Below are positions 5,719 through 35,655 of a stretch of 64,000 nt of DNA, piece after piece. The notes under the pieces are model-generated. The model was not told the origin of the DNA and made no database searches. It worked only from the letters and a program-made list of their open reading frames with translations. The position numbers were made by a program, and so were the translations under genes. This stretch comes from Bacteroidota bacterium (GTDB lineage: Bacteria > Bacteroidota > Bacteroidia > Flavobacteriales_D > Crocinitomicaceae), in NCBI GenBank assembly GCA_016192075.1, contig JACPUU010000002.1, positions 248,001-312,000 on the forward strand. The letters are read 5' to 3'. How positions within the stretch are numbered: position 1 is the stretch's first letter; the number at the start of each line of letters is the position of its first letter.

Positions 5719-6201
5719 ATGGTACGCAACGCAACAACACAAGATGCAGCTCAATTGGTTGATCTCTACAACCACTACATCCGCCATACCCTGATTACAT
5801 TTGAAGAAGAAGAATTGACTGCTGCACAATTTGCAGAACGCATTCAGAAAATTTCAGCACACTATCCCTTTTTGGTTTATGAAGAAAAGGGTGAGATACT
5901 CGGCTTTGCTTATGGTAACAAATGGCGTGAACGGTCAGCATACCGGTTTGCGCTTGAGAGCAGTGTTTATGTCAGACAAGGCCATTTCGGAAAAAAAATC
6001 GGCAACAAACTCTACGAAAAATTATTTGAAGAACTCAAAAACCAGGGATGCAAACAGGTTATTGGTGTTATCACACTACCCAATGAAACCAGTGTTCGCA
6101 TGCATGAAAAATTTGGCTTTGAAAAAGTAGCCCATTTTAAGCAGGTGGGGCTGAAATTCGGCCAGTGGTGCGACGTGGGATTTTGGCAGAAGACACTTTG
6201 A
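5719..6201 (+). CDS. GNAT-family N-acetyltransferase, phosphinothricin/amino-acid acetyltransferase type
   Basis: The protein has 160 residues, the normal size for the Pat/YncA (MnaT) branch of GNAT enzymes. It opens with the strand-helix VRNATTQDAAQLVDLYNHYI and keeps the family's ITFEEEELTAAQFAERI segment. The acetyl-CoA pyrophosphate loop is seen as RQGHFGKKIGNKLYEKL at about residue 92, followed by NETSVRMHEKFGFEKVAHFKQVGLKFGQWCDVGFWQK, the typical C-terminal half. These enzymes acetylate the amino group of phosphinothricin, methionine sulfone/sulfoximine or related amino acids; the natural substrate here is unknown. It lies 53 bases after purL on the same strand and may be co-transcribed with it. 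Confidence 0.9.
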   Translation: MVRNATTQDAAQLVDLYNHYIRHTLITFEEEELTAAQFAERIQKISAHYPFLVYEEKGEILGFAYGNKWRERSAYRFALESSVYVRQGHFGKKIGNKLYEKLFEELKNQGCKQVIGVITLPNETSVRMHEKFGFEKVAHFKQVGLKFGQWCDVGFWQKTL

Positions 6202-6207
6202 TCCATT

Positions 6208-6239
6208 ACTTAACCCGGGAATGAATTCCGGGGTTAAGT
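6208..6239. repeat. Palindromic hairpin between convergent genes with CCCGGGAAT core
   Basis: A 9-bp perfect outer stem (ACTTAACCC paired with GGGTTAAGT) encloses a second paired segment around the core CCCGGGAATGAATTCC, with a single mismatch between the two. It sits between the 3' ends of the acetyltransferase gene and the response-regulator gene, so it may terminate both, but there is no clear T tract. Its core closely matches the 46-bp palindrome at 17443-17488 beside the RAYT gene, so it may be a dispersed copy of a REP-like element. Confidence 0.6.
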
Positions 6240-6245
6240 GAAAGT

Positions 6246-6998
6246 TTATTCATGTGATTTCAGTATGGAAATAATTTCGGTTTTTTTACGGCGGCTTACT
6301 TCAATTTCAAGGCTACTTCCCTGCATGAGAATAATACATTCCTGCCCTTTGGTGTACGAATTTACGTGGTGAACATTGATAATGCAACTTTTGTTTACGC
6401 GTATAAAATTAGGTACACGTTCCAGCAATTCAGCATAGTCTCCCAGTGGTTTTGCTGAAATATAATGCTGCTGTTTTACATCCAGTATTTCACTGTAAAC
6501 ACGGTGGGCAGTGATGTAAACAATGTCGTTTAAATCAATTATATGAACCTTGTCGTTGCCGTGGATCATAATTTTTTTGACGTAGTTTGTTTTTTCTTCC
6601 AGTGAGTGAACAAACCGAATGAGGTTTTTAGATCCGACATCAAGTTGCTTTTCCGCTTTTTTGACAGCCTTGATTAATTTGAGATGGTCAATGGGTTTCA
6701 GTACATAATCTACTGCATTAAATTCAAATGCTTTGATTGCATATTCGTCAAATCCGGTTACAAAAATGACAGAAAAATTAATTTCATCAAAGAGCCGGAG
6801 CAAATCAAATCCTGTTTTTTCGGGCATGTTAATATCCAGAAAAATTACATCAGGGTTTGTATCACAAATCAACCGGTAAGCACTGTCAGCTGAATCTGCA
6901 ATGCCAATTATTTCAACCTGGGGACAGTGTTTTGTTAAGAGACTTGACAGCAGAATCTGGTTGTCTTGCTCGTCATCGATAAGAATTGCTTTCATCAT
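6246..6998 (-). CDS. LytTR-family two-component response regulator
   Basis: The 250-residue protein has an N-terminal receiver domain (about 1-120) with acidic pocket D8/D9, phospho-acceptor D55 in VIFLDINMP, T81 and K101 in YVLKPID. A C-terminal LytTR DNA-binding domain (about 145-245) shows IIDLNDIVYITAHRVYSEI and the VPNFIRVNKSCIINVHHV segment. It is presumably phosphorylated by the sensor kinase encoded immediately upstream, whose stop lies 26 bases inside this gene, so the pair is one transcript and probably translationally coupled. LytTR regulators bind direct repeats upstream of target genes; targets are not identifiable here. Starting at Met2 would shorten the overlap by only three bases. 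Confidence 0.95.
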   Translation of the reverse strand: MMKAILIDDEQDNQILLSSLLTKHCPQVEIIGIADSADSAYRLICDTNPDVIFLDINMPEKTGFDLLRLFDEINFSVIFVTGFDEYAIKAFEFNAVDYVLKPIDHLKLIKAVKKAEKQLDVGSKNLIRFVHSLEEKTNYVKKIMIHGNDKVHIIDLNDIVYITAHRVYSEILDVKQQHYISAKPLGDYAELLERVPNFIRVNKSCIINVHHVNSYTKGQECIILMQGSSLEIEVSRRKKTEIISILKSHE

Positions 6999-9909
6999 AT
7001 TCTTTTTCCAATTTGTCCGGCAGAGAGACCGGTAATTTCAGATTTACCTGCGTTCCAACCGGGTTCATAAAATCATCATACAAATCAATCGTTGTTACTT
7101 CTGCAGCAGTGTTTGTGTAGAACTGGTTAATGCTGTCAATACGATCCTGAATAATCTGTGTTCCCTTACTTACTTTATGTTCATTTACATGAATGGGTTT
7201 TCTGTCTGCCGCTTTTACCCGGCCCAATCCATTGTCAATGATCGAAATCACAATAAAGTCATTCTCTTTGGTAATGGTCAAAATCAGTTTTGGATTTCTT
7301 TCAGATTTGAGGGGAACGAGTCCGTGCCAGATTGCATTTTCAATGAACGGCTGTGTAATCAGCGGCGGCACATAGGTATCAGCCAGGTCAATGTCATCAG
7401 AAATTTGTTTGATAAACAAAAAATTTGTTGGAAACCGCAGTTGTTCCAGCTCAATATTTAAATCAATTATTTTCAGTTCATCACTCAGGCGCGCAACACT
7501 TCGATCACTGTATTTTAAAATATAACGGATCAAAAGCCCGAATTTGGCAATGTATAAGTTTGCCCGGTCTGCGTTTCCGGAATCAATCATAAGTTGAATG
7601 GCAGCCAGTGAATTTGAGATAAAATGCGGATTTATCTGTGCTTTGAGCGCCATTAATTTATAGGTGGCAACCCGGTTGTCAAATTCAGTTTGTCTGCGCT
7701 CGCGCTTTCGTTTCAGGTGATAGTAAAACCGTACCAGGGCCCCTGAAATAATGGCAATGGCAAGTATAACCAGGATTCTGAACCAATACGTTTGCCAGAA
7801 AGCCGGATGAATGATAAAGGATTTTGAAACAAACGTGTCCTCTTTCGTACTAAGACCGTTGAAGGGGAACACACCTAACTCATACGATCCGGGGCTGAGG
7901 TTTTGAATCTGAAGAACGTTTCCGTTAATGATTCCGCTTGATTCTGTGGGGCCGGCAAGTGTATACCAGAAACGCTGTACCTGTGACTGATAGTTCAGAA
8001 AATGCAGGTTAAAACGAAGATCATTTTCAGAATGGGCCAGTTCAGAAAAATCAGATGGCAATAGCTGTGAGTTGGCATAAACCGCATCAATAAAAACAGG
8101 ATAGGTTTGATTTTGGTTCAGGTGCTGAATGGCTTTTGAATAAAGGCCTGATTTGGATGCTATCCAGATTGTGGCTGAGTCAGTTTCTACTGCATTTACT
8201 TCATGGTCAAACAACAACTGCCAGTCTTCTGCCCTGGTTTTTTTGGTAGAATGGTTGTAATAAACACCTTTGTTGGTAGAAAAAATAATGCCGTCGGTAC
8301 CAAAAAAATCAATGTCTTTAACGGTAACTGACGGAAGGTAGGAGTAGCACATTATTTCCTGCCGGGGTGTAACAATGAACAATTCATTTCCGCTGGTTGA
8401 CACCCATAAGTTACCTGTTTGATCATACGCCAGCTTCAGTATAAAACGGTCAGCAAAAAATGGCAAACAGGGAACAATGGTATTTTTTTTATAGTTGTAC
8501 ACATAAATACCGTATGTCGTTCCAAGCAGGCACTCATCTTCGTCTTTTGGGACCGAGCAGCAATATTTGGAATTCATATACACATAAGAGGCCACCCGGT
8601 CATCTTTAAAGTGGACGGCTGAAGAGGCTCCAAGACTTATAAATTCACGATCATTGATAATCCAGAAAGTGTTGGAATAGAGGCTGCCTTCAAGCGGACC
8701 TTTTATTTCACTAACAGGGCCATTATCCGGCTTGTGAAAAACACCTTTTTTTGTACCAATTAAATATCCGTTCTTGTATCTTGAAATGTCTTCACAAAAA
8801 AGTTGCCGGGTAAAAGAATGAATCAGTTCAGGTTTGCCCTTGTTGATTACGTAGCATCCTCCTTTGGAATCACAGGTGTAAATTGTTTTTCCGTCATTTT
8901 TAATAAAAAATATTTCTTCCCGCGGAACACTGTTTTCATACGATATAAAGCGCTTGTCTTTACAGTAATAAATTCCCTCTCCAATGGTTGATACCCATAT
9001 TCCTCCTTTGTTATCAAAGCAAATGTCAGAAATGGTTCTGGAGCCAAGGTACGTTGCCAGCACATTCAGGTCTGAATTCATAACCACCAGTCCTTGCGTG
9101 GTTAGCACCCATATCAGGTTATTGTCATCGGTTTCAAACGTAACAATATCGTTCAGTTCAGCACTTATATTGGAACCGTCAGGCGCTATCCGGTAAATTT
9201 TTTGGTTGGTTGAAAGCAGGTAAAAATTGTTCATCTTTCTCATTGTCCGGCGGTCGTAGTATGTATCAAATACCACCTTGCTGAAAATTGTTTTGTCATG
9301 ATCCCTGATTTTTGCATTAACCAATCCGTATTGGCAAAGATCCGGCCGCGATGAAAAAAAATAAGTATCAGTTAACGCAGAAAATACAAAGTCATGTACT
9401 GAATCTTCAAGCGTCAGTTCACTTATCTCATTTGTCAGCGCAGTATATTTGTAATTCTGGTTAATGGTAGAAAAGAAAATGTTTCCGGAACTGTCAATAG
9501 CCAGCTGCAAAATGGGGTCATTCATCTTATTAAAAGTAGGGCTGAATGATTCAATGGCCTTAATGCTGAAGGCAGAATCATTTTTAATCGTATATATTTT
9601 GCAAAGTGAATTGGCAAAATACAATTCTCCCCCGGGTGATTGAAAAACGGCGTATGCCGTTTGTTCTTTGGGCTCCAGGTTGGTACATACCGGGTAAAAA
9701 TTTGAACCATTGTGTTTTACAATACCGTATTCACTGAAAACCCAAATGTATCCCTGTTTGTCCTGAATTACGTTGTAACATTCGGCGGCGGGCAAGCCGT
9801 CTTTAGCGGTCAGTTGTTCAAATCGTAAGGTTTGTCCGTACGATGGATAAAAGAAAAAAGACGCCAGACAAAAAAATACAAAAAAAGTACTTTGGTATGT
9901 ATTAGTCAT
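6973..9909 (-). CDS. Propeller-Y_Y_Y sensor histidine kinase (LytS-type His_kinase domain)
   Basis: The 978-residue membrane sensor begins with a signal peptide ending SYGQ. A periplasmic region follows with about a dozen Reg_prop beta-propeller repeats (for example DKQGYIWVFSEYGI, DNKGGIWVSTIGEGIYY, DQTGNLWVSTSGNELF), then a Y_Y_Y domain with FWYTLAG...LSPGSYELGV. One transmembrane helix lies at about 710-735. The cytoplasmic kinase is the PF06580 type: LKAQINPHFISNSLAAI with phospho-acceptor His near 762, N-box FIENAIWHGL near 857 and DNGLG near 893. The middle of the H-box reads PHFISNSL rather than the common PHFLFNSL. It is transcribed together with the LytTR regulator. In Bacteroidetes relatives such propellers sense polysaccharide fragments or other periplasmic ligands; no SusCD-like locus is adjacent, so the signal is unknown. 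Confidence 0.92.
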   Translation of the reverse strand: MTNTYQSTFFVFFCLASFFFYPSYGQTLRFEQLTAKDGLPAAECYNVIQDKQGYIWVFSEYGIVKHNGSNFYPVCTNLEPKEQTAYAVFQSPGGELYFANSLCKIYTIKNDSAFSIKAIESFSPTFNKMNDPILQLAIDSSGNIFFSTINQNYKYTALTNEISELTLEDSVHDFVFSALTDTYFFSSRPDLCQYGLVNAKIRDHDKTIFSKVVFDTYYDRRTMRKMNNFYLLSTNQKIYRIAPDGSNISAELNDIVTFETDDNNLIWVLTTQGLVVMNSDLNVLATYLGSRTISDICFDNKGGIWVSTIGEGIYYCKDKRFISYENSVPREEIFFIKNDGKTIYTCDSKGGCYVINKGKPELIHSFTRQLFCEDISRYKNGYLIGTKKGVFHKPDNGPVSEIKGPLEGSLYSNTFWIINDREFISLGASSAVHFKDDRVASYVYMNSKYCCSVPKDEDECLLGTTYGIYVYNYKKNTIVPCLPFFADRFILKLAYDQTGNLWVSTSGNELFIVTPRQEIMCYSYLPSVTVKDIDFFGTDGIIFSTNKGVYYNHSTKKTRAEDWQLLFDHEVNAVETDSATIWIASKSGLYSKAIQHLNQNQTYPVFIDAVYANSQLLPSDFSELAHSENDLRFNLHFLNYQSQVQRFWYTLAGPTESSGIINGNVLQIQNLSPGSYELGVFPFNGLSTKEDTFVSKSFIIHPAFWQTYWFRILVILAIAIISGALVRFYYHLKRKRERRQTEFDNRVATYKLMALKAQINPHFISNSLAAIQLMIDSGNADRANLYIAKFGLLIRYILKYSDRSVARLSDELKIIDLNIELEQLRFPTNFLFIKQISDDIDLADTYVPPLITQPFIENAIWHGLVPLKSERNPKLILTITKENDFIVISIIDNGLGRVKAADRKPIHVNEHKVSKGTQIIQDRIDSINQFYTNTAAEVTTIDLYDDFMNPVGTQVNLKLPVSLPDKLEKEYDESNSYR

Positions 9910-10345
9910 TTTACAAGTATGGCAATTACGCAGCTACTTTCCGGTTGAAATTATTTAAATGCAGTTACCATTAATTCTGCTGTATGATTCAAAAAAAATA
10001 CGCAGAACCGGTGGATTTATTTTGCTAATTTAAGAAATACTTTACTGCACCTATCCATTCTGAGAGGTATATCATTCAAGAATCCGATTGCTGAATTTTT
10101 GAGAATCAATTATTTATTTTGGAGTAAGTCTGCGCAAAAATCGTTGGGTTGGCGAATTAGGTTTCCGATCGTTTTTTTGACAACCAACTAAAAATTCCTG
10201 CATCGTTTTTCGAAACGTTTAACCCGCGCTGTTTCATGAATTTGAGGTGAATTTTCTGCAATTTCAGGGCGTTGTGTCAAAAACCTTTCCAGTGGTTTTT
10301 TTTGAGATTCAAAATGGTTGAGCTTTGTCCTGAAAAAAAATATAT
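9910..10345. other. 436-bp divergent intergenic region
   Basis: This AT-rich spacer lies between the start of the sensor kinase (minus) and a secreted protein gene (plus). It must carry promoters for both. I found no exact TAnnTTTG element near either start codon, no convincing hairpin and no coding potential. Confidence 0.6.
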
Positions 10346-12481
10346 ATGAGAAATCTTAAATCAACTTTAGCCTTAGCGGCGCTCATCGGATTTTCGTCCG
10401 CAAATGGGCAAACCTGTACAGGTTATGTGCAACCACCCAATGATTTGGTTCAGAACGGAGGCATGGAATATTTTTCGAAGCCATGCGCCAATCTGGAGAT
10501 CAACAACGGCCCTTTTTACCCGTGTTGTTTTTGGACCTACCCATTGTCCAGCAATACAACCAGCTCTATTCTGGCGTCAGATTATTACAACGCGTGTGCG
10601 CCAACACCAACAACAAATGTTCAGGCCGGTAATTCTGTAAACGCATCACTTAATCTGCACAATTTCAGCTATGGTAGCCCGCCCACAGCGTTTATGGCAG
10701 TAAGTCCGCATACCGGAAACGGGTATTCAGGAATTTCAGTGTGTCAAAGTACCTCAGGTTTCGAGCATCGTGAATACATAACGTCTCAGTTGGTTTCAAC
10801 ATTGCAGGTAGGTGCTACCTATCAGTTCAGCGCCTGGGTAAGATTGTCGCCGGATAGCCAGTATGGAATTCAGAATTTGTCTGTTTTATTTTCAAACGCG
10901 CCTGCTGTTCAGGGTACATCGGGTTCCATTGGTTTACCAATTAATCCGGCAGCGGGTGATCTGTTGGTTCCGCTTAGTACAAGTCCTGTCACAAACAAAA
11001 CCGGTTGGGTTCAATTAACCGCAAATGTGGTAATACCAACCGGCTCAAGTTTTTCATACATTACTATTGGAAATTATTCAACCAATGCGGCAACAACATT
11101 GAGCAGTTTACTTCCGGTAGGTACAGCAAACAGTGTGTTCTCGTACTATTTTGTAGATGATGTTTCACTCACGTATGTTTGCGGACCAATTACACCTTCC
11201 ATTGCTGTTGCTTCAACGTATTGTTATGGATCTCCCATCAGTTTTGTCGGATCATCGACCGGTACAGCAAATTACAATGTATGGACCGTAGTTGAGAGTG
11301 ATCAGTTTGGAACCCCGGTAGTAGGTGCAACAGAGTGGTGGAGCCCTTGGTTTACTGGTAATCCTGGCTATTACACATTGCCTTCTGTGAATGGTCCGGC
11401 ATTGGCTTGTGGAAAATACTACCGTATAAAATTAGCTGTGGGCAATGACTGTTATGGCTGGGTTGAAACCACGCAGGTTATTTATTTAAACTGTCCGCCA
11501 CTTTCATACAGTCTTGCTGATCAGACAATCTGTAACGGAGATTGTGTGACACTCTCTGTTCCGGGTCCGTTAAAACATCATTCCTATACATGGACTTACC
11601 AGTCAGATGAACCTTTTGTTATTAGTACTGTGAATTCAGTAGTTGTTTGTCCAACACAGACTTCAACCTATTGCATAACTGTTACAAACAATCTCACCGG
11701 ATGCTCGACAACCACGTGTACAACGGTATATGTTGAAACGGCAAATCCGGCTTTCAGTTTATCAGTTACCCCAACGGCAGCAACCTACCAGACTTTTAAA
11801 GGGACTCCTGTTCAAACAACAAACCTTCCGTCCGGTTTTGGTTTTGTATGGTTTGTTGAAGAACTGGATGGATCTTACAACACCATTTATACGGTAAACA
11901 GCAGTGATCCAAACCTGATTCCTTGCTGGTGGACATTCCCTGGCGCTGAAGATTTTGACGGGTTTGACGGTACAACACCAACCCCGACATTAAGCACAAG
12001 CTGTTCACCGTCACTAGGTAAATTCAAATACAATACAAACTACCGTATTACACGTGGTACATGGTCAGATAATTGCCCGTGGACCCAAATGTCATACCTG
12101 GTTTATACCGCAAAAACAGCCGATGGAAATGTAGTGATTGTAGAAGATGAAAACGCACCTGATTTCAGCTATTTAATGAATGATGTAAGCGGTGTGGCAT
12201 CTGCAAATGGTCTGCTTCCGTTAGCGGATGAAACAACATTGTCAGTTTACCCGAATCCTTCAAACGACCTGGTAAACCTGACCTATTCATTCAACGAAGG
12301 CGTCAGCGGAAAAATAACAATCACTGACATCTCCGGAAGAACAGTTCAAACACTGGTTCTGTCTGCCAATACCGGTACAATTAAACTGGATATGATGGCC
12401 AATGAAAACGGAATCTATTTTGTCAATTTATTTGAAGGTGATGAGCTCATCAAAACAGAAAAACTGATTTTGAATCATTAA
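10346..12481 (+). CDS. Secreted T9SS type A surface protein, function unknown
   Basis: The 711-residue exported protein has a signal peptide MRNLKSTLALAALIGFSSANGQ. The N-terminal half (about 22-280) resembles the jelly-roll modules of Bacteroidota adhesins: NGGMEYF..., SAWVRLSPDSQYGIQNLSVLFS, NKTGWVQLTANVVIPTG and YFVDDVSLTYVCG. Ig-like, cysteine-containing segments follow (QTICNGDCVTLSVPG, CPTQTSTYCITVTN). The C-terminal 80 residues are a type IX secretion type A sorting domain: LSVYPNPSNDLVNLTY, GKITITDISGRTV, ENGIYFVNLFEGDELIKTEKLIL. The domain should direct export through T9SS and cleavage or anchoring at the surface. No enzymatic motif is visible, so adhesion or a matrix role is an inference. 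A strong terminator follows. Confidence 0.85.
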   Translation: MRNLKSTLALAALIGFSSANGQTCTGYVQPPNDLVQNGGMEYFSKPCANLEINNGPFYPCCFWTYPLSSNTTSSILASDYYNACAPTPTTNVQAGNSVNASLNLHNFSYGSPPTAFMAVSPHTGNGYSGISVCQSTSGFEHREYITSQLVSTLQVGATYQFSAWVRLSPDSQYGIQNLSVLFSNAPAVQGTSGSIGLPINPAAGDLLVPLSTSPVTNKTGWVQLTANVVIPTGSSFSYITIGNYSTNAATTLSSLLPVGTANSVFSYYFVDDVSLTYVCGPITPSIAVASTYCYGSPISFVGSSTGTANYNVWTVVESDQFGTPVVGATEWWSPWFTGNPGYYTLPSVNGPALACGKYYRIKLAVGNDCYGWVETTQVIYLNCPPLSYSLADQTICNGDCVTLSVPGPLKHHSYTWTYQSDEPFVISTVNSVVVCPTQTSTYCITVTNNLTGCSTTTCTTVYVETANPAFSLSVTPTAATYQTFKGTPVQTTNLPSGFGFVWFVEELDGSYNTIYTVNSSDPNLIPCWWTFPGAEDFDGFDGTTPTPTLSTSCSPSLGKFKYNTNYRITRGTWSDNCPWTQMSYLVYTAKTADGNVVIVEDENAPDFSYLMNDVSGVASANGLLPLADETTLSVYPNPSNDLVNLTYSFNEGVSGKITITDISGRTVQTLVLSANTGTIKLDMMANENGIYFVNLFEGDELIKTEKLILNH

Positions 12482-12502
12482 AAAGCAGTTTAGCTGATGT
12501 AT

Positions 12503-12541
12503 AAAACTCCGGCAACCTCATCGTTGCCGGAGTTTTTTTTT
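12503..12541 (+). terminator. Rho-independent terminator
   Basis: An 11-bp perfect stem, ACTCCGGCAAC with GTTGCCGGAGT, surrounds a six-base loop and is followed by a run of nine T. It lies just after the stop of the secreted protein gene and ends its transcript. Confidence 0.9.
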
Positions 12542-12682
12542 GCACTGAGGTCATGTGCCAAAAACTTTCCCTGTGGTAGTGATAAAAAAATAAGTTCAAA
12601 ATTCAGTCATTTTAGTGTACGTCGGTAGCAACTGTAGCGTTTAGTCAGCGTTAATAGCTAAGAGTATAAGAATCCGGTATAC

Positions 12683-14767
12683 ATGAAAACGTATATTTTC
12701 TCAGGAGTTTTCCTGCTGTTATGTTTGTCTGGTGCTGCACAACCTGGCGGATGCCCTCTGCCGGTGATCAGTTATACCGCTGATTGCGGAGCTGATTCAA
12801 CTCAATTGATGGCCTCCCCGGGATTTGACAGCTATACCTGGTTTCCCGCTGCAGGACTTTCTGATTCCACGGTTCAAAATCCAATGGCTCTTTTGAATAT
12901 AGGTGCAACCTATAACTTAATTACCACAACCCTGGGGCCTGAGTTGGTTTTCAATGGTGATTTTGCTTTGGGCAATACTGGATTTATCAGCGGGCAAATA
13001 TATTCATCGTGGTATTCTCCCTGCAATTATTATGTGGCCCCCACTTTTTTTACAACCGCATACAGCCTTACGGATCATACACCCACCGCTGATAATTTTT
13101 TCATGTCTGTTGACGGCTGCGGCCCTGCAACCATTTTGTGGGAACAAACAATTTCAACCATTGATCCTTTTGAAATCTATGACTTTTCGTTTTGGGGCAC
13201 CAAGGTAGATTATAATCAACCCATTTATGAAATGCATTTGATTGGCAATGTAACCGGTGATGTTGTTGTTGCAACGCAAACGGGCGTGGTTTATACCGGT
13301 ATCTGGGATTGGGATGAATACGGATTTTCTTCCTGGAATTCAGGGGCTAACACATCCGTTACAATTCGTATTGTAAACCTCGAAACAAATGGCTTCGGAA
13401 ATGATTTTGCGCTGGATGATTTTTCATTTCGTAAAATTTGCGTTGATACAACCAGCGTAACGCTTTCAGAAGGTGTGCTGACTGCAGATTTCGATTTCAC
13501 ACCCGGTTGTCCGGGAACAGAATCCAGCTTTACTGATTTAACACCCGGCACTCCGGATTCATGGTCGTGGAATTTTGGTGACGGTGCCACTTCAACAGAC
13601 CAAAATCCGCAGCATGTTTTTTCAAACTCCGGTACATACCCTGTAACACTTTTTGCAACCACGCTGAGTGGATGCCAGGATTCGGTAACCCTTTCTGTTT
13701 TGGTTCCTGAATTACCGGTTGCCGATTTTGGTTTTGTCAACGATTGTTATTACAATGTAGCAGCGTTCACTGATCTGTCAACCGTTTCGTCAGGTTCAAT
13801 CAATCAATGGGAGTGGAATTTTGGAGATGGATCAACAAGTCTACTGCAGAACAGTACGCATCTATATTCGGGTAGCGGAACATTTAACGTTCAACTGGTT
13901 GTTACTTCTGACGCCAATTGCAAGGATAGTGTGACACAGGTAATAAACAGGTTTGAAGCACCGGTTGCCAATTTCAGCAGTATCACTGAAGCGTGTGAAC
14001 AGGCATGTATACCCTTTACTGATTTATCAACCTTCGTCGACATTCCAATTGCATCGTGGCAATGGGATTTTGGCAACGGCCAGACCTTTGGTACACCTGA
14101 TCCTGTTCCCTGTTTTACCAATTTATCTGCGGTTGTTTCTTCATTTGATGTAACGTTAACCGTGGTCAATGATTCGGGGTGCCAACATACTTTTTCGGTT
14201 GCAGACTACCTGCAGATTTTTCCAAAACCGGTGGCTTCTTTTACATATAGTCCCAATGATCCTGATGTAACGCATTCAACAGTGCAGTTTAATAATACCT
14301 CGCAATTTGCAGATTCGTACGCCTGGAATTTTGGTGATTCTGATGGTTCGTCAAATGAAACAGATCCGTCTCATGTTTATGAAAATTCTCCCGGCTCTTA
14401 CCTTGTAACGCTTATTGTTTCTTCGTTTAATGGTTCCTGTGCTGATACTGCGCAGGTAATGATCACCATTCTGGAAGATCCGGTGTTTTATGTGCCGAAT
14501 TGTTTTACGCCGGATGGAGATGCATTTAACCAGGTATTCCTGCCCATATTTACAGAGAGTTTTGATCCCTATGCATTTCACTTAACCATTTTTAACCGTT
14601 GGGGAGAAATTGTTTTTGAATCATACAACGCAGCCATAGGGTGGGATGGAACGTATGAGAATAAGGGGCTTGTTCAGGACGGCGTTTATGTTTGGCGAAT
14701 CAGCCTTAAAGAATCAGCTTCAGAAATGCCAGCTGAATATACCGGGCATGTAACCATTCTTAAGTAA
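12683..14767 (+). CDS. Secreted PKD-domain protein with CHU_C (T9SS type B) C-terminus
   Basis: The 694-residue protein has a signal peptide ending GAAQ. A jelly-roll-like module follows at about 90-250 (ELVFNGDFALGNTGF ... FALDDFSFRKIC). Four PKD domains come next, each with a WNFGDG-type motif (WSWNFGDGATSTDQNP, WEWNFGDGSTSLLQN, WQWDFGNGQTFG, YAWNFGDSDGSSNETDP). The last 90 residues are the gliding-motility-associated/CHU_C domain: VPNCFTPDGDAFNQVF, FHLTIFNRWGEIVFES, GWDGTYENKGLVQDGVYVW, TGHVTILK. Such proteins are T9SS cargo handled by the type B route, usually large cell-surface adhesins. The gene starts with ATG 140 bases after the preceding terminator and appears monocistronic. Confidence 0.88.
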   Translation: MKTYIFSGVFLLLCLSGAAQPGGCPLPVISYTADCGADSTQLMASPGFDSYTWFPAAGLSDSTVQNPMALLNIGATYNLITTTLGPELVFNGDFALGNTGFISGQIYSSWYSPCNYYVAPTFFTTAYSLTDHTPTADNFFMSVDGCGPATILWEQTISTIDPFEIYDFSFWGTKVDYNQPIYEMHLIGNVTGDVVVATQTGVVYTGIWDWDEYGFSSWNSGANTSVTIRIVNLETNGFGNDFALDDFSFRKICVDTTSVTLSEGVLTADFDFTPGCPGTESSFTDLTPGTPDSWSWNFGDGATSTDQNPQHVFSNSGTYPVTLFATTLSGCQDSVTLSVLVPELPVADFGFVNDCYYNVAAFTDLSTVSSGSINQWEWNFGDGSTSLLQNSTHLYSGSGTFNVQLVVTSDANCKDSVTQVINRFEAPVANFSSITEACEQACIPFTDLSTFVDIPIASWQWDFGNGQTFGTPDPVPCFTNLSAVVSSFDVTLTVVNDSGCQHTFSVADYLQIFPKPVASFTYSPNDPDVTHSTVQFNNTSQFADSYAWNFGDSDGSSNETDPSHVYENSPGSYLVTLIVSSFNGSCADTAQVMITILEDPVFYVPNCFTPDGDAFNQVFLPIFTESFDPYAFHLTIFNRWGEIVFESYNAAIGWDGTYENKGLVQDGVYVWRISLKESASEMPAEYTGHVTILK

Positions 14768-14786
14768 TAACTGGTTATTTCAGGTC

Positions 14787-14823
14787 AAAAAAAAATCGCC
14801 CGGAATCTGAGTCCCGGGCGATT
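14787..14823 (-). terminator. Terminator between convergent genes
   Basis: A 10-bp stem (AATCGCCCGG with CCGGGCGATT) and ten-base loop is bordered by a run of nine A on the left, giving a U tract for minus-strand transcription. It therefore ends the lipoprotein mRNA at 14836 and may also stop read-through from 14767. Confidence 0.85.
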
Positions 14824-14835
14824 GTCGTCAGCAAT

Positions 14836-15786
14836 TTAAAAATTGTTGATGGTGGTAGTAAGTTCACCTTGTGTGGTAGGTGTCAGTTCTGATATGGTTA
14901 TAATTTGTCCATCCGTAATGGTAACATCTTTAATAGCGTGATGCAGTTCATCATCAATGATGGCAACCGCTACCACGTGAACATGCAAACCAATTGGAAT
15001 TTGTCCGTAGTGTTCTGAGAAATAACCTTCAGGGGTAAAAGCATCCAGCCTGGCCAGGCAGTTAGGCATATCATCATATACCAGGTAAATTTCACAGTTT
15101 GACAGGTCATATCCCTCAGGCATTTCAACCAGTAAGGTTGTTTTTGGATTAGGGTCAGACCAGAAACGATCAACATTGGTCCAGCCCCATTCACCGTCCA
15201 TGATTCCGTAAGAACCGCTGCCGGTTGTGTCTACAACCATAGCCGTGTCGGCAACATCAAGCTCCCACAAATCTTCGCCGGTATTTACATCACCGCCCAT
15301 GCGAAAAAGCTCCATGTTCGGGTCCATTCCCCCGGTTAAATTAGCCGGAACATTCACCAGCACATACGAATTTGTATGTAACTGATTACCGTTTTGTGTA
15401 ATGTTGAGGTAATATTCACCGCCTGAAAGCAATAACGTTGGCTCACCTCCTGGTTGAACGCCAATAGTAGGCTTGTTGTTAAACAACATGGAAGCGCGGT
15501 CAAAAATTTCAATAAGCTCTACGGTTACATTTCCGCTCACCAGGTTGTTTGATGCGTCAAGCAATGTATTCGGAAAAATTTCCACAGTTGTTCCGTGAGT
15601 TCCAGTAATCACGTCGCCGGTAGTTGCATTGACGGTATAGGTCTGCACGGCTCCGTTGCGGTTTGAGGTAAACAGGTCGGTTAATGCGCTGCCGTCCGGT
15701 GTTGGGGGAGGAATAACTTCAGGTTTGTTGCAGGAATAGGCCAGCAACAAAACAGCGGTTGCTATTAAAAGAGATTTTGTTTTCAT
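14836..15786 (-). CDS. Lipoprotein of unknown function
   Basis: The 316-residue protein has a lipoprotein signal MKTKSLLIATAVLLLAYSC with Cys19 as the lipidated residue, then a short proline-rich linker (KPEVIPPPTPDG). The rest is beta-rich and soluble. A segment at about 50-115 (VIFPNTLLDASNNLVSGNVTVELIEIFDR-like, with TTVEIFPNTLLD) resembles the ZU5/carboxypeptidase-regulatory-like folds of Bacteroidota lipoproteins. A repeat of similar character occurs near the C-terminus. I do not recognise a catalytic site. It is probably exposed on the inner or outer membrane. It is monocistronic with its own terminator. Confidence 0.8.
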   Translation of the reverse strand: MKTKSLLIATAVLLLAYSCNKPEVIPPPTPDGSALTDLFTSNRNGAVQTYTVNATTGDVITGTHGTTVEIFPNTLLDASNNLVSGNVTVELIEIFDRASMLFNNKPTIGVQPGGEPTLLLSGGEYYLNITQNGNQLHTNSYVLVNVPANLTGGMDPNMELFRMGGDVNTGEDLWELDVADTAMVVDTTGSGSYGIMDGEWGWTNVDRFWSDPNPKTTLLVEMPEGYDLSNCEIYLVYDDMPNCLARLDAFTPEGYFSEHYGQIPIGLHVHVVAVAIIDDELHHAIKDVTITDGQIITISELTPTTQGELTTTINNF

Positions 15787-15950
15787 CGTAGTTAGTTTTT
15801 GTTAGATACAAATCGTTGCGTTGAATGGTTGTCTGGATTTCAGTAGATATTTTAATCTGCTTAACATCAATAAGTTAACGTGTTTATTTCGGATACAAAC
15901 GGCTGGAGACAATACTAAAAAGTTCAAAAAAATTTGGAAATTAAGTTAGA

Positions 15951-15976
15951 TAGTTAGACATTTGTTTAAATAACTA
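15951..15976 (+). promoter_or_regulatory. Candidate autoregulatory operator of the SdpR-type repressor
   Basis: TAGTTA and TAACTA form an inverted repeat separated by 14 bases, ending five bases before the repressor start codon. A further GTTAGA-type direct repeat lies immediately upstream (15944-15957). ArsR/SdpR repressors bind imperfect inverted repeats over their own promoter, so this is the natural operator candidate. The site is inferred from position and symmetry only. Confidence 0.35.
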
Positions 15977-15981
15977 ATCAA

Positions 15982-16236
15982 ATGAATCGTCTTTTCAAAG
16001 CACTGAATGATAAAACAAGGCGCCGGATTCTGGAACTTTTGCGCAAGGGCGATATGACTGCGGGTGAAATTGCAGAGCAATTCAATATGACCAAGCCAAG
16101 CATTTCACATCACCTGGATTTATTAAAACAGTCGGACCTTGTTACAGCTGAAAAAAAAGGACAGTTTGTAGTATACAGTATTAATACAACAGTCATTGAT
16201 GACTTATTGAAATGGGTTTTGAAAATCAAAAAATAA
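15982..16236 (+). CDS. ArsR-family transcriptional repressor, SdpR autorepressor type
   Basis: The 84-residue protein is a compact winged helix-turn-helix: LFKALNDKTRRRILELLRKGDMTAGEIAEQFNMTKPSISHHLDLLKQSDLVTAEKKGQFVVYSINTTV. That arrangement is typical of the SdpR autorepressor group, which lacks the metal-binding cysteines of classical ArsR. It lies 37 bases upstream of an SdpI-family membrane protein, reproducing the Bacillus sdpRI immunity/signal operon arrangement. In Bacillus, SdpI captures SdpR at the membrane when the SdpC toxin is present; whether the same happens here is not shown by the sequence. No SdpC-like toxin gene is seen nearby. Confidence 0.9.
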   Translation: MNRLFKALNDKTRRRILELLRKGDMTAGEIAEQFNMTKPSISHHLDLLKQSDLVTAEKKGQFVVYSINTTVIDDLLKWVLKIKK

Positions 16237-16273
16237 GTGCAGGTACCAATCTGCCGAACTAAAAATAACAGTT

Positions 16274-16933
16274 ATGAAAACAAAAAAAATCAGTCGGGAA
16301 ATTTTATTTATCCTGCTTCATTCAGTCCCTTTTATTTACCTGGCGCTTAACTATGCGTCGCTGCCTGAAATGGTGCCTACTCATTTTAATGTAGCCGGTG
16401 AGGCAGATGGATTCAGTTCACGGCAATCGCTGATATGGATACTGCTGGCTTTAAACGGGCTGGGGTATTTACTTTTCTTGGTAATTCCGTTTATTGATCC
16501 CAAAAAATTTGCCACCACACATGAAAAAATCTATTTCCGCATCCGCATCGGAATGGCTTTACTGCTTGTGGCATTAAGTGTATTGATGGTTTATCTGGCC
16601 AATGGTGATCCGATGAAAGGAATTTTTGCGCTGGGCGTTTTCTTTGTACTGATTTGTGTTTTTCTGGGTAATTATTTACAGGCCGTAAAAACCAATTATT
16701 TTATCGGAATCAGAACTCCCTGGACGCTGAATAGTGAAACTAACTGGCGAAAAACACACCTGGTGACCGGCCGCATTCTTTTTTACGGCGGCATTGCCAG
16801 CATACCACTCTTGTTTATACTCCCGGCCAATCTGGCGCCAACAGGTGCGGTGGGAGTCCTTCTCGGTGGTTGTTTGTTTGGGTTGATTTATTCGTACGTA
16901 CTCTTCCGCAACGAAAAAAAGGAGACTGTCTGA
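16274..16933 (+). CDS. SdpI-family membrane protein (DUF1648/SdpI)
   Basis: The 219-residue protein has about six transmembrane helices. It carries the DUF1648 signature LPEMVPTHFNVAGEADGFSSR in the first extracytoplasmic loop and the SdpI-domain signature FIGIRTPWTLNSETNWRKTH near residue 145. Members act as immunity or sensor proteins against the SDP cannibalism peptide in Bacillus; in other phyla they are found with SdpR repressors without known ligands. It is co-transcribed with the repressor upstream. Its 3' end overlaps, on the opposite strand, the C-terminal tail of the RAYT transposase reading frame. A palindrome directly after the stop codon may end transcription. Confidence 0.9.
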   Translation: MKTKKISREILFILLHSVPFIYLALNYASLPEMVPTHFNVAGEADGFSSRQSLIWILLALNGLGYLLFLVIPFIDPKKFATTHEKIYFRIRIGMALLLVALSVLMVYLANGDPMKGIFALGVFFVLICVFLGNYLQAVKTNYFIGIRTPWTLNSETNWRKTHLVTGRILFYGGIASIPLLFILPANLAPTGAVGVLLGGCLFGLIYSYVLFRNEKKETV

Positions 16934-17346
16934 TTCCCCACACCCCACATCCCGGGATATGGGGTGTGGGGGATACCATGATGCACTTTCTGATTCTGAA
17001 TATATTCAAACACTTTTTCCAGCGCAGATTCACTGACTGAGAATGCTCCATATCCTTCCTGCCAGCTAAATCTACCCGGTACTGATGCGTATTCATTTAC
17101 ATAGCGGGATGAACTTCCTTTAACCTGTTTAATGGTATCTGCAATGGAAACTGACGCATTCATCTTAAACAAACAATGAACGTGATCGGGGGCTCCGTTA
17201 ATAATTTTCACCGGGCACCGTAATTGCATGAACTCAGCACGCATTTTCGGGTACAGAATTTTCTCCAGGGAAGGTGTAATAACAGGTTCACGGTATTTAG
17301 TTGTCCAAACGGCATGTACCCATATTTTGCTTAACGAATGTGACAT
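16888..17346 (-). CDS. REP-associated tyrosine transposase (RAYT, Y1/HUH family), altered C-terminus
   Basis: The protein starts MSHSLSKIWVHAVWTTKYREPVI, the usual beginning of Bacteroidota IS200-like/REP-associated transposases, so I prefer the Met at 17346 to the one three codons upstream. The HUH motif is DHVHCLFKM. The catalytic-helix region is FSWQEGYGAFSVSESALEKVFEYIQNQKVHH, with the likely nucleophilic Tyr in VFEYIQ. After VHH the familiar tail is absent. Instead the reading frame runs through a palindrome and then antisense to the SdpI gene's 3' end (GIPHTPYPGMWGVGNQT...). The gene is bracketed by two long palindromes (16936-16971 and 17443-17488), as expected for a RAYT and its REP targets. 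Function may be impaired by the altered tail. Confidence 0.85.
   Translation of the reverse strand: MSHSLSKIWVHAVWTTKYREPVITPSLEKILYPKMRAEFMQLRCPVKIINGAPDHVHCLFKMNASVSIADTIKQVKGSSSRYVNEYASVPGRFSWQEGYGAFSVSESALEKVFEYIQNQKVHHGIPHTPYPGMWGVGNQTVSFFSLRKSTYE
16936..16971. repeat. Long palindrome at 3' end of RAYT gene (REP-like)
   Basis: A 12-bp perfect outer stem (CCCCACACCCCA with TGGGGTGTGGGG) encloses the 10-bp palindrome ATCCCGGGAT after one mismatch. It begins two bases after the SdpI stop codon and lies within the RAYT reading frame. Shared features with the palindrome on the other side of the RAYT (CCCCAC tips, CCCGGGA core) suggest a REP pair. Confidence 0.8.
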
Positions 17347-17442
17347 CGCAAACATTAAATAGAAGATTATTCGTCTGGGAATTTTTTTTGATCGCAGATA
17401 AATTCTCTCAATAGAATAGCGATCCCGTTGCGTTTTAAATTA

Positions 17443-17488
17443 CCCCCACGCTCAGCCCGGGAATTAATTCCCGGGCTGAGCGTGGGGG
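17443..17488. repeat. Perfect 46-bp palindrome upstream of RAYT gene (REP-like)
   Basis: Both 23-base arms are exactly complementary (tips CCCCCACGCTCAG, centre CCCGGGAATT/AATTCCCGGG). It lies 8 bases past the stop of the serine protease gene and about 97 bases upstream of the RAYT start. It may also act as terminator of the protease operon, although no T tract follows. Confidence 0.85.
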
Positions 17489-17496
17489 GTGTTGTT

Positions 17497-18582
17497 TCAA
17501 TTTTCAGCTAACTCCATACCATATTGCTCAGACAGCAAATGGTCATAATGATCTGCTTTTTTGAACAAATCATCCAGTATTGTTTTTCCGGTTTCTTCGT
17601 TCAGGTCTTCGTCATACATGATGGTGCCCAAAACAATATTCTGGCGGTCAACAGAAAAGGTGAGTGATTCCAGCGTATAATTTTCGCGCAGCAGAAACTC
17701 GTATAATTTTCCAATGTTTTCTTTAGGCAGTGAACCAAGCGTTGCATCACAATAAACAAAACGGTTGTTGGTGTTGTAAGATACTTTGATGAGGGCACTG
17801 CCGCTTTCTACATCCCATCCCACTTTGCCTACACGTGAAAGTTCTACATTTTTTCCAATGCCTGCAAGAATTTTTTCAATGGTGGCAGAAACTCCTTCAG
17901 GCTGATACGGGGTTGATTCAAATTCCTTTACATCAAACTGATTTCCGCAATGCGGGCAATAGCCATCCTGTAAGCTTGATTTGGTCAGAATGTTTGTACA
18001 TGATGGGCATTTGGATGCTCTTTCATTGTTTGATTTTTCTGAAAATTCGCGTAAAATTTCATTCAGTTTAACCGATGGCAGTGCAAATCCAAGACTTTCA
18101 CCATCTCTGAAAATAAACGTGTTTACACCTACTACTTCTCCGCGTTCATTGATCAGTGGTCCGCCGCTGTTGCCGGGATTAATGGCTGCATCTACCTGAA
18201 TATAATCCACGTTATTAAACTTCCGTTCGGCTTTTGAAACAATTCCCTGTGTGGCTGTAAACCGCAATCCAAGCGGGTGACCAATGGCAATAATTTTTTC
18301 ACCGGCTTCTACTTTCCTGTCAGAGATTTGTACCTGGCCTGAATTCTGGTATCCGTCAGGTACGCGCAAAAAAGCAATATCATTCAACGGGTCCGTGTAA
18401 ATAACATTTGCCATGGTTTTGCTGAATTTTTCACCGCGTATTACCACCCGTTCATTACCAAAAATAACGTGACGGTTTGTTACAATCAGATTTTTTTCTT
18501 TTACAATAAATCCGCTTCCTGATCCTCCTGGCGTGTGGATTTGTACAATAATATCCTGGTATGTGTTAATGATGTCTTTCAT
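17497..18582 (-). CDS. Cytosolic HtrA-like trypsin-fold protease with zinc ribbon and C-terminal YbjN-like domain
   Basis: The 361-residue protein has a trypsin-2/HtrA-type protease domain (about 5-180) with a complete triad: His38 (TNRHVI), Asp68 (LNDIAFL) and Ser139 (GNSGGPL). There is no signal peptide or membrane anchor, and no PDZ domain. Instead a rubredoxin-like zinc ribbon (Cys192, Cys195, Cys209, Cys212; CPSC and CPHC) follows. The last part (about 235-350) is an alpha/beta domain resembling YbjN/type III chaperone-like folds (SRVGKVGWDVESGSALIKV ... LPKENIGKLYEFLLRENYTL). A similar domain appears in the protein encoded 15 bases upstream, so the two probably work together in the cytoplasm. 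Substrates are unknown. A perfect palindrome follows the stop. Confidence 0.88.
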   Translation of the reverse strand: MKDIINTYQDIIVQIHTPGGSGSGFIVKEKNLIVTNRHVIFGNERVVIRGEKFSKTMANVIYTDPLNDIAFLRVPDGYQNSGQVQISDRKVEAGEKIIAIGHPLGLRFTATQGIVSKAERKFNNVDYIQVDAAINPGNSGGPLINERGEVVGVNTFIFRDGESLGFALPSVKLNEILREFSEKSNNERASKCPSCTNILTKSSLQDGYCPHCGNQFDVKEFESTPYQPEGVSATIEKILAGIGKNVELSRVGKVGWDVESGSALIKVSYNTNNRFVYCDATLGSLPKENIGKLYEFLLRENYTLESLTFSVDRQNIVLGTIMYDEDLNEETGKTILDDLFKKADHYDHLLSEQYGMELAEN

Positions 18583-18597
18583 ACTTTAAAGGGGGCT

Positions 18598-19953
18598 TTA
18601 ATTTTTTCGTAAATCAAATTTGTCAAGTTCAACAATCAGTGAGTCAATAAAATTGGTCACACTGGTATAGTTCAGCACATTTGGATCCAGTTTAACAAAG
18701 GGGTATTCTGCATTACTTTTCTTAACCAGCCGGTTAATTTCGTTCTTAATCGCTGCCGTGTTCAACACCCGGCCGGCGTCAACCAGTTTTACCGGTGCCC
18801 CAAATTTTTCATAGTATTCATGATTCATTACATGCATGGCCAGGTTCAGCATATCTGAAACCGGGTAAACCATTCCATAGTTGAAAAAAGCATAACTGGT
18901 CATATAACTGTATATGGCTTCAACAATTTGCGGATAGTTGTTGTCACGATACCAGCCCACTTTATTGCGTTCGTCAAACATCATGTCCATAACCGTTTTG
19001 TGCGCTGCCGGGTTAGCAATGGCAAATGTGCATTTCACGTTATAGAGTCCGGCAAGTACTTTTTCTTTTGGCCAGTTGGCAATTTTGTCAAACTCAGCCA
19101 TAATATTTTTGTTCTTTTCAGTGGTGGTAAGGTTGTCTTTGGCAAAGAACATTTGCTGAATTTTTTCAAGTGAGTCAGTTAATGTTCCCTGCGGAGCAAT
19201 CAGGTAGTCAATTTTGTAAGACAGGTTCAGTAGTATAAATGCAATTCCGCCGGCCATAAAAGCCGGATCATGTTTGGCAATTTCAGTTTTGGTATCATTG
19301 ATCCAGCTTACCAGGGCCTGGTATTTCACTTCTTTGTCATGGTCTGACAAGGCTATGATCTGGTCCGTATCAATGGTTTTGAGAGACGCAAATTCTGCTG
19401 CCAGCAAATCGTCCTGCTGATCGGCTTTTTTAGCCAGTTCTTTTAATGCCGCGTAGAGTTTGTTGGGAGATGCATCAATGGCATTTGAACTGAATTTCAT
19501 AACCAGCACATTGTCTTTCAGTGCAAATTTGGAATAAAGCAGCGTATAGTTAATGGCCATTAATTTGCGCATTACCGGTATGCTTGGGTTATCCATTTGA
19601 ATAATGGGTGACTCTGCCCATATTTTAGAAGCGGTTGCCTTGCCCCGTACTACTTTTGAACCCTGCAGCAATTCAAAATCAATGCTGTCACTGCCCCGGG
19701 TAATTTTAACGTTGTTGGCCTCTTCATCACGTATATAGTTCAGAAAAGCTTCAAATGAATCCAGGTAAGCCTTTTCTTTAAACTTGCTCACAGAGGTGTT
19801 CCAGAATTCAATTTGTTTCTTGTTTTTGTTGCAGTCGGTATAACGCCCGAATTTTACTTCTTTGGAAGAACCATTGCCTGCATTTGCCGTTGCGGCCGGA
19901 GTAGTGACAGAAGATTCGTCACCGTTCCCGAATATTTTTTTTAAGAATGACAT
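18598..19953 (-). CDS. YbjN-like/type III chaperone-like domain protein, partner of the protease
   Basis: The 451-residue soluble protein has no signal peptide. The N-terminus MSFLKKIFGNGDES is followed by a low-complexity Ala/Thr/Gly linker. Residues about 40-200 look like a YbjN-type fold: FWNTSVSKFKEKAYLDSFEAFLNYIRD, DNPSIPVMRKLMAINYTLLYSKFALKDNVLVMKFS, PNKLYAALKELAKKADQQDDLLAAEF. The LM..NYTL...F.L..N.L and LL-terminal helix parallel the end of the adjacent protease (LLRENYTLESLTFSVDRQNIVL ... LFKKADHYDHLL). The C-terminal half (about 210-450) is helical and unrecognised. The gene is first of a two-gene operon with the protease. Confidence 0.75.
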   Translation of the reverse strand: MSFLKKIFGNGDESSVTTPAATANAGNGSSKEVKFGRYTDCNKNKKQIEFWNTSVSKFKEKAYLDSFEAFLNYIRDEEANNVKITRGSDSIDFELLQGSKVVRGKATASKIWAESPIIQMDNPSIPVMRKLMAINYTLLYSKFALKDNVLVMKFSSNAIDASPNKLYAALKELAKKADQQDDLLAAEFASLKTIDTDQIIALSDHDKEVKYQALVSWINDTKTEIAKHDPAFMAGGIAFILLNLSYKIDYLIAPQGTLTDSLEKIQQMFFAKDNLTTTEKNKNIMAEFDKIANWPKEKVLAGLYNVKCTFAIANPAAHKTVMDMMFDERNKVGWYRDNNYPQIVEAIYSYMTSYAFFNYGMVYPVSDMLNLAMHVMNHEYYEKFGAPVKLVDAGRVLNTAAIKNEINRLVKKSNAEYPFVKLDPNVLNYTSVTNFIDSLIVELDKFDLRKN

Positions 19954-35333: not shown

Positions 35334-35655
35334 CACTGGTTTCTGAAAATCAGGCCCTGTGTGGGATTCGTTATTTCACCCGGGAAATTACAGTGGGGGC
35401 AATTCTGGTCGCTTTTTTTAACAAGATGAGCTAAAAAGGTTATTTTTTATCTTCGAATGTTGAAAATTTTAACTGTAAAACAACCATTTACAACCATTTA
35501 GGGTTAGTTTTGGTCGAAAAAAAATAAAACCAAAAAAAAAATCGACGAAGCAACCATTTTTACTGTACTACGTTCTGTTATTAACTGCTGAGGATTAGAG
35601 TTGCCGGGATTCTTTCAAATGTAAGGATCATTTCTAATCTGGAAATTAAGAAATT
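35334..35655 (+). other. 322-bp spacer with direct repeats and a promoter element
   Basis: Between two secreted-protein genes. It holds two adjacent copies of CAACCATTTA (about 35481-35500) directly upstream of TAGTTTTG at 35505-35512, a TAnnTTTG promoter match. A partial CCCGGGAAATT core occurs near 35379. Nothing coding is seen. Confidence 0.5.
35505..35512 (+). promoter_or_regulatory. TAnnTTTG promoter of the glycine-rich surface-protein gene
   Basis: TAGTTTTG matches the consensus. Transcription from about 35517 gives a leader near 140 nt. The tandem CAACCATTTA repeats immediately upstream could bind a regulator. Confidence 0.4.

Follow-up and report, generated by a model that had tools for sequence, protein, structure and literature searches.

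The window analyzed here, a stretch of 64,000 nucleotides from a Crocinitomicaceae genome (assembly GCA_016192075.1), contains a gene for a Y1/HUH transposase, tnpA, that is flanked by two long palindromes (Table 1). The larger palindrome, which follows the stop of a trypsin-like gene after a gap of 8 nt and lies 5' of tnpA at a coordinate distance of 88 nt, has 23-nt arms with no spacer and, as single-stranded DNA, a folding energy of -30.4 kcal/mol (z -12). The smaller one, whose sole mispair is C.A on the + strand, begins 2 nt past the stop of an SdpI-like gene and falls within the 3' portion of the tnpA frame. A sequence-only reading of this DNA had described a perfect and an interrupted palindrome on either side of the transposase gene, sharing CCCCAC tips and a CCCGGGA core. 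Both palindromes and their common elements were confirmed, and both do flank the gene, but tnpA does not simply lie between them, since its frame runs through the 36-bp palindrome. The possible third copy proposed at the same time is real; two genes converge on it, with a coordinate distance of 7 to either stop. A partial core proposed near 35379 (cacccgggaaattaca) did not hold up: it is not among the inverted repeats of the window, no palindrome is visible there by eye, and it was dropped as a family member. Searched with up to three mismatches, CCCGGGAATNNATTCCCGGG matches the window at 6214 and 17456 only (0.00 matches expected from 100 shuffles), and this pattern does not pick up the 36-bp palindrome. 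An Rfam scan of positions 5800-18700 returned a single match, below threshold and elsewhere than the palindromes; this NsiR1 match at 12490-12541 (33.3 bits, gathering 39) covers an ordinary terminator hairpin and is probably due to chance. Positions 15982-16933 hold an ArsR-type repressor gene followed by a gene for an SdpI/DUF1648 membrane protein, a pair that we take to resemble the SdpR-SdpI immunity pair.

Table 1. Positions in the window of tnpA and of the palindromes
Feature	Position	Strand	Description
tnpA, Y1/HUH transposase	16888..17355	-	IS200/IS605 type, subclass 1.2 signature; Y1_Tnp
36-bp palindrome	16936..16971	.	near-perfect, 17/18 pairs
46-bp palindrome	17443..17488	.	perfect, CCCCCACGCTCAG-CCCGGG-AATTAATT-...
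Dispersed family copy ACTTAACCCGGGAATGAATTCCGGGGTTAAGT	6208..6239	.	15-nt arms, 93%, 2-nt spacer

Judging from its sequence, the window protein is an IS200/IS605-type TnpA of subclass 1.2 and not a curated RAYT. It matches Y1_Tnp with an E value of 2e-26, and its catalytic HUH and Tyr are retained, D57-H58-x-H60 and Y118 being invariant. Its motifs DHVH, WQ, and YIQNQKVHH fit the subclass 1.2 signature (DH[IV]H, WQ, and Y---Q--HH). In the accessible part of the classification of Quentin et al. 2018 (PMC6006769), subclass 1.2 TnpA_Y1 proteins, with DH[IV]H, WQ, and YIxNQxxHH, are described as low-copy proteins of Bacteroidetes whose C-terminal domain, about 30 residues long, is conserved. The NCBIfam model for IS200/IS605 transposases (NF033573) gives 73.5 bits, which passes the cut-off of 55, and the closest solved structures are the IS608 and ISDra2 transposases, with the RAYT structure 4er8 ranked 30th. 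Among the three neighboring proteins scanned, none is a TnpB. The proteins of relatives end in a tail of some 25-30 residues, and in close relatives about 25 residues follow Y-x-x-x-Q-x-x-H-H. This tail is lost in the window protein, in which residues 129-140 are encoded by the 36-bp palindrome (residue 129 begins at 16971) and residues 141-155 lie opposite the final stretch of the SdpI gene, in antisense. An AlphaFold2 model built from 10 sequences keeps the core fold with moderate confidence (mean pLDDT 65), with pLDDT below 50 for residues 129-155.

The sequence-only reading took the pair for a genuine RAYT with its classical REP family, which we find hardly credible. Palindromes on either side of a Y1 gene, with further ones dispersed between genes, are what such a system would look like, but the RAYT model (NF047646) reaches 33.8 bits where its cut-off asks for 80, the Y-x-x-x-N-P motif of RAYT is absent, with YIQNQ in its place (YxxxQ rather than YxxxNP), the repeats are few and have no loop, and real RAYT genes are found elsewhere in the same genome. 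The reading is thus partly supported: the dispersed copies are there and many homologues are flanked in the same way, but the protein is not a curated RAYT and the repeats are low in number and poor in loops. Three other Y1 genes of the source genome (L013, L014, and L015, at C20:43955-44212, C7:93493-93729, and C18:168102-168335) are of class 2 with Y-x-x-x-N-P. On these, NF047646 gives 99.6 and 101.9 bits for two, which pass, and 62.1 for the third, scored from an internal start. Hairpins near L013 have GCGAGCGTCCCGCTCGC-like cores and represent a different repeat family.

The palindromes belong to a family that is dispersed in the source genome (4,654,694 bases in 22 contigs). A 20-bp core searched with up to three mismatches was found at nine places, against none for the reversed pattern, and a looser core at 16 places, against one for its control; the 16 looser-core places and two more from the 20-bp search make up the 18 core places that we studied. 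We then scored the outer pairs, at distances 10-16 from the center, which lie outside the looser-core pattern (for the two added places, just distance 10 lay inside the 20-bp pattern). At least six of these seven pairs are kept in nine of the 18 places, and five in two more. The outer arms vary between copies yet remain self-complementary, with a pairing of 0.66 versus 0.37 for mixed arms (0/2000 permutations). Together with the 36-bp palindrome, the nine places give 10 long copies, a count that misses any copy with another core. Further genomic copies, which the sequence-only reading had left to a genome-wide search, thus exist and are mostly intergenic at gene 3' ends. As for the question of whether they sit 3' of convergent genes, four of the 10 long copies lie between convergent genes, including the 36-bp one between SdpI and tnpA. 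REPs usually exceed 100 copies, according to the accessible text of PMC2817692, and 10 long copies in 4.65 Mb are far below this number. The source-genome repeats are loop-less dyads, and outside the hairpin there is no GTRG foot. Within the stem, the signature is looser in this genome, the foot register being occupied by TAG in some copies and by TAA, TAC, CAG, or GAG in others.

Two other repeats were noticed in the course of this work. The first is a second palindrome family with cores TTATGCGCC and GCGCATAA (L008 1791-1835 and L230 8518-8562), whose outer arms differ yet remain self-complementary. The second, in the source genome, is a long imperfect hairpin repeat, GTCATGCTGAACT..TTCAGCATC / GATCCTGA..AGTTCAGGATGAC (L231 2900-2965 and L248 18497-18565).

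The position of the copies at gene ends brings up the possibility that they are transcription terminators, many of them bidirectional, and that a transposase merely happens to lie between two of them. By distances that depend on mechanically called ORFs, a stop codon lies within 35 nt of nine of the 10 long palindromes (the C19 copy is 105 nt off), which this explanation would account for. In two of the 10, the stop codon is inside the palindrome, and at C17:99k a mechanical ORF start overlaps the palindrome too. Pfam searches with the genes that stop inside a palindrome, in which the C6 match ends before the palindrome and C8 has no family, did not distinguish the older arm. In four of the 10 long copies (C6, C12:788k, C17:99k, and the 46-bp palindrome of the window), the stem is followed on one or both strands by 8 nt that include five or more T, and a scan calls the 46-bp stem terminator-like on the + strand. 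However, the other six long copies have no such T-run, and the 46-bp palindrome has its T-run on one strand while the trypsin-like gene and tnpA are on the other. In a sample of the source genome, ordinary terminators also look different, having a loop and a T-run. This baseline of 464 kb, made of the window and 20 stretches, three of which were chosen knowing of hits, has 19 hairpins that reach an arm score of 12; its T-run hairpins are all looped except for one family copy at C17, and loop-less long palindromes are a minority. A point against the pairing of such transposases with palindromes is that, near the other two subclass 1.2-like genes of the source genome, C5 and C16 (broken), there is no palindrome with an arm score of 12 within 1.5 kb; a different, unrelated loop-less palindrome lies approximately 3.2 kb from the C5 gene.

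Palindromes accompany tnpA in other genomes as well. In a first scan, run over genome contigs, a relative was present at 50 loci, and all six of the closest homologues in it (52-55% identity) have a palindrome of 32-38 bp at 33-35 nt past the tnpA stop, which is perfect in five and has one mismatch in the sixth (L032). This palindrome usually lies between short hairpins of the types AATCGTTGAAACGATT and AACCATTTCAATGGTT, degenerate in some. The pattern derived from the relatives occurs at 36 places in seven such genomes. In one of them (G006) it has 19 matches, two of which look like one place because of overlapping contig ends, versus none for the reversed control, which gives one or two matches in G001-G003 and G008. 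Among 27 distinct sequences, pairs that the pattern leaves unconstrained are kept at 0.933 versus 0.501 after shuffling (0/2000). Palindrome matches in G006 exceed the tnpA hits found there (one gene, L036, and a fragment, L066). Of the 79 relative genomes searched, in which the source genome is the sole member of its own genus, the strict pattern is present in 6/6 having a clade tnpA versus 3/73 others (P = 3e-7), an association that carries little weight: some of those six genomes went into the making of the pattern, one of them (G042) holds a fragment only, and another (G080, 41% identity) was added to the group after its palindrome had been seen. With two mismatches, a loose pattern was swamped by AT-rich background, matching 79/79 genomes, and it was kept for the count in G018 alone; this genome has 69 matches versus 9 for the control and no matching tnpA, which counts against the pairing, and, with a stricter pattern, 0 matches versus 3 for the control.

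Several of these loci bear on mobility. The tnpA units of G023, a genome of the same family as the source genome, and G089 are 94% identical over 544 nt in unrelated flanks, while conserved neighbor DNA of the two genomes is about 80% identical, which argues for movement. The G023 copy is the same as that at L035 of a Bacteroidota MAG, which makes a Bacteroidota host likely. The exact ends of the G023 unit are unreadable because just one of its flanks is matched, being present without the unit in G042 and G089, while the other flank was not found. What looked like its 5' palindrome comes after the 3' end of a remnant of an older tnpA; judging from the sequence of this remnant, units appear to have been inserted side by side. 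In G066, three tandem copies of ATAGCYCAGGGTTTAAACCCTGGGCTAT with a period of approximately 75 bp lie directly 5' of tnpA at a contig end (L128 1-230). By a broader measure, which includes some ordinary looped hairpins, GC-rich hairpins within 250 nt are found 3' of 17/71 homologues versus 5/121 control ORFs, and 5' of 15/72 versus 8/117. When 58 proteins were placed in a quick tree, those labeled "palindrome," a label that again covers some looped hairpins, clustered (8 changes versus 12.7 when shuffled, 0/500), and the window protein is on a long branch without a starred set.

A similarity-ranked survey of the order quantified this pairing. The query was an alignment of six TnpA proteins, each from a palindrome-flanked locus, and 104 of the 399 genomes searched have a match at an E value of 1e-25 or better. 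For the best 30 loci of more than 150 matches, with a threshold that was fixed after the palindromes had been listed (arm of at least 10, spacer of at most 2, GC of at least 0.33), there are 43 palindromes in 29,445 nt beside tnpA versus 3 in 50,226 nt farther away. This corresponds to 1.46 versus 0.06 per kb, or an approximately 24-fold difference, with a control that is not matched for distance to stop codons. At the same threshold, a 400-kb sample of the source genome has 14 palindromes (0.035 per kb). Palindromes lie beside 21 of these 30 loci, the window's own included: 10/10 records that had been seen earlier, recognized via their contig numbers and palindromes, and 11/20 new loci. The other nine new loci, among them 4/4 of genus g18 and one at a contig edge, have none at this threshold. 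The tnpA gene of G088 has perfect palindromes of 52 and 54 bp on either side, as in the window, with a core common to both and different outer arms. The 54-bp palindrome is preceded, 3' of tnpA (L309 1950-2300), by degenerate half-sites such as AACTACGAACACACCC that run into it, in what looks like a decayed inverted array. At the register defined in the first set, AG is present in 9/19 palindromes of new loci and in 6/10 genomes, against an expectation of 1 in 16; the 19 are palindromes of at least 24 bp listed by hand, and they are not all independent since three are near-copies from G160. These observations weigh further against the terminator explanation: palindromes are dense beside tnpA (by an unmatched control), they also lie 5' of tnpA or in tandem (three in G066), and a TTAA center and a foot recur, which are not needed for termination. 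We regard this explanation as unlikely, although a terminator role at gene ends may exist.

A plain IS200/IS605 insertion sequence, with the two palindromes as its end hairpins, would agree with the model that the protein passes and with the hairpins present on both sides of tnpA here and in G088. Against this, several homologues have palindromes that are one-sided, tandem, or adjoining tnpA remnants, the matches in G006 outnumber the tnpA hits, and the palindromes are symmetric, with both strands alike, unlike IS200/IS605 ends, which makes this explanation unlikely. The comparison with IS608 and ISDra2 TnpA is similar: the fold and catalytic residues are alike, but the end hairpins of these elements are imperfect and strand-specific (in part from the accessible text of PMC8266576), and the palindromes here are symmetric.

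There are also important similarities to and differences from repeat-associated transposases. Like the RAYT/TnpA_REP REPtron, the unit described here has palindromes on the flanks of its Y1 gene and dispersed between other genes, and many copies have a T[A/G]G foot that faces CT or CC and resembles the last three letters of GTRG. Unlike in the REPtron, the protein fails the RAYT model, and the palindromes are longer, symmetric, loop-poor, and few. As described in the available portion of PMC8266576, TnpA_REP acts on one strand only and uses a loop or bulge; the hairpin is bound on one strand, the GTAG foot serves as a guide, and cutting occurs at CT and once also at CA. Double-foot REPs of TnpA_REP subclass 2.4, as far as the excerpted text of PMC6006769 goes, are alike in having a foot and its reverse complement on either side of the hairpin and in that a REP can lie inside tnpA with the frame unbroken. 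They differ in that the protein is of another class, and the foot here is within a longer paired stem. TIRYT/TIRtrons, in the sections of PMC3733652 at hand, likewise have Y1 genes flanked by non-GTAG repeats, some of them in repeat families, but the repeats there are terminal inverted repeats, and the Y1 proteins that accompany them are different ones. Here, each of the two flanks forms a palindrome on its own, and the protein belongs to the short class 1 type. Compared to subclass 1.2 as published (PMC6006769, accessible sections), the motifs are alike, palindromes flank many members here, and the window copy is tail-less. In that part of the study, the REP entry for subclass 1.2 in the table is "no," and the automatic search for REPs looked for GTAG/GTGG next to a hairpin that has either a loop of 2-5 nt or a bulge. 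Since a GTAG/GTGG foot and a loop were required, most palindromes described here would be missed. Our literature search found no paper tying subclass 1.2 TnpA to palindromic repeats, and the accessible text of PMC6006769 reports none. Our results suggest that a transposase group thought to lack partner repeats may well have them.

We favor, with a probability of about 0.68, a REPtron-like unit that would combine a subclass 1.2 single-strand-DNA TnpA with its own class of symmetric palindrome repeats. Gene and palindrome are paired in many genomes, copies are dispersed, arms co-vary, and palindromes adjoin stop codons. The partner repeats are long and nearly loop-less, with C-rich tips and a dyad core that is often T[A/G]G-N6-NNTTAANN-N6-C[T/C]A. 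When present in a single strand, for example in the lagging-strand template, such a palindrome would fold into a hairpin topped by a TTAA-type tetraloop. For the inner hairpin, the sequences suggest a stem of 8 bp below a TTAA-like tetraloop and, in many copies, a foot resembling T[A/G]G that faces CT or CC. TnpA might bind this hairpin, use the TAG-like foot as a guide, and cut at the complementary CT; by rejoining strands, it could then spread or replace palindromes beside tnpA and elsewhere. Given the symmetry of the dyad, TnpA could act on one strand as well as on the other. Replication template-switching makes and repairs perfect stems, according to the accessible part of PMC8794818, and it probably corrects one arm from the other here, which would keep the arms perfect while their sequence changes; the arms could thus change together without many selected double mutations. 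The low copy number and the loss of the C-terminal tail to a palindrome suggest that the unit in the source genome is probably decayed or weakly active. A different role for the enzyme, which we consider a long shot, is that the transposase makes the palindromes instead of just moving them. It would insert or re-cut a symmetric core in single-stranded DNA, with adjoining host sequence copied into an inverted repeat, by which each copy would gain locus-specific yet perfect outer arms, and, since the two strands carry an identical core, it would need no strand choice of the IS200/REP type.

If the REPtron-like reading is correct, it has several implications. First, should the palindromes be the substrate, a whole branch of Bacteroidota proteins would become testable with single oligonucleotides. 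Second, a hairpin that is identical on both strands would challenge the notion that strands are discriminated by a loop, bulge, or foot. Third, arms that vary but stay perfect may offer a natural record of how palindromes stay perfect.
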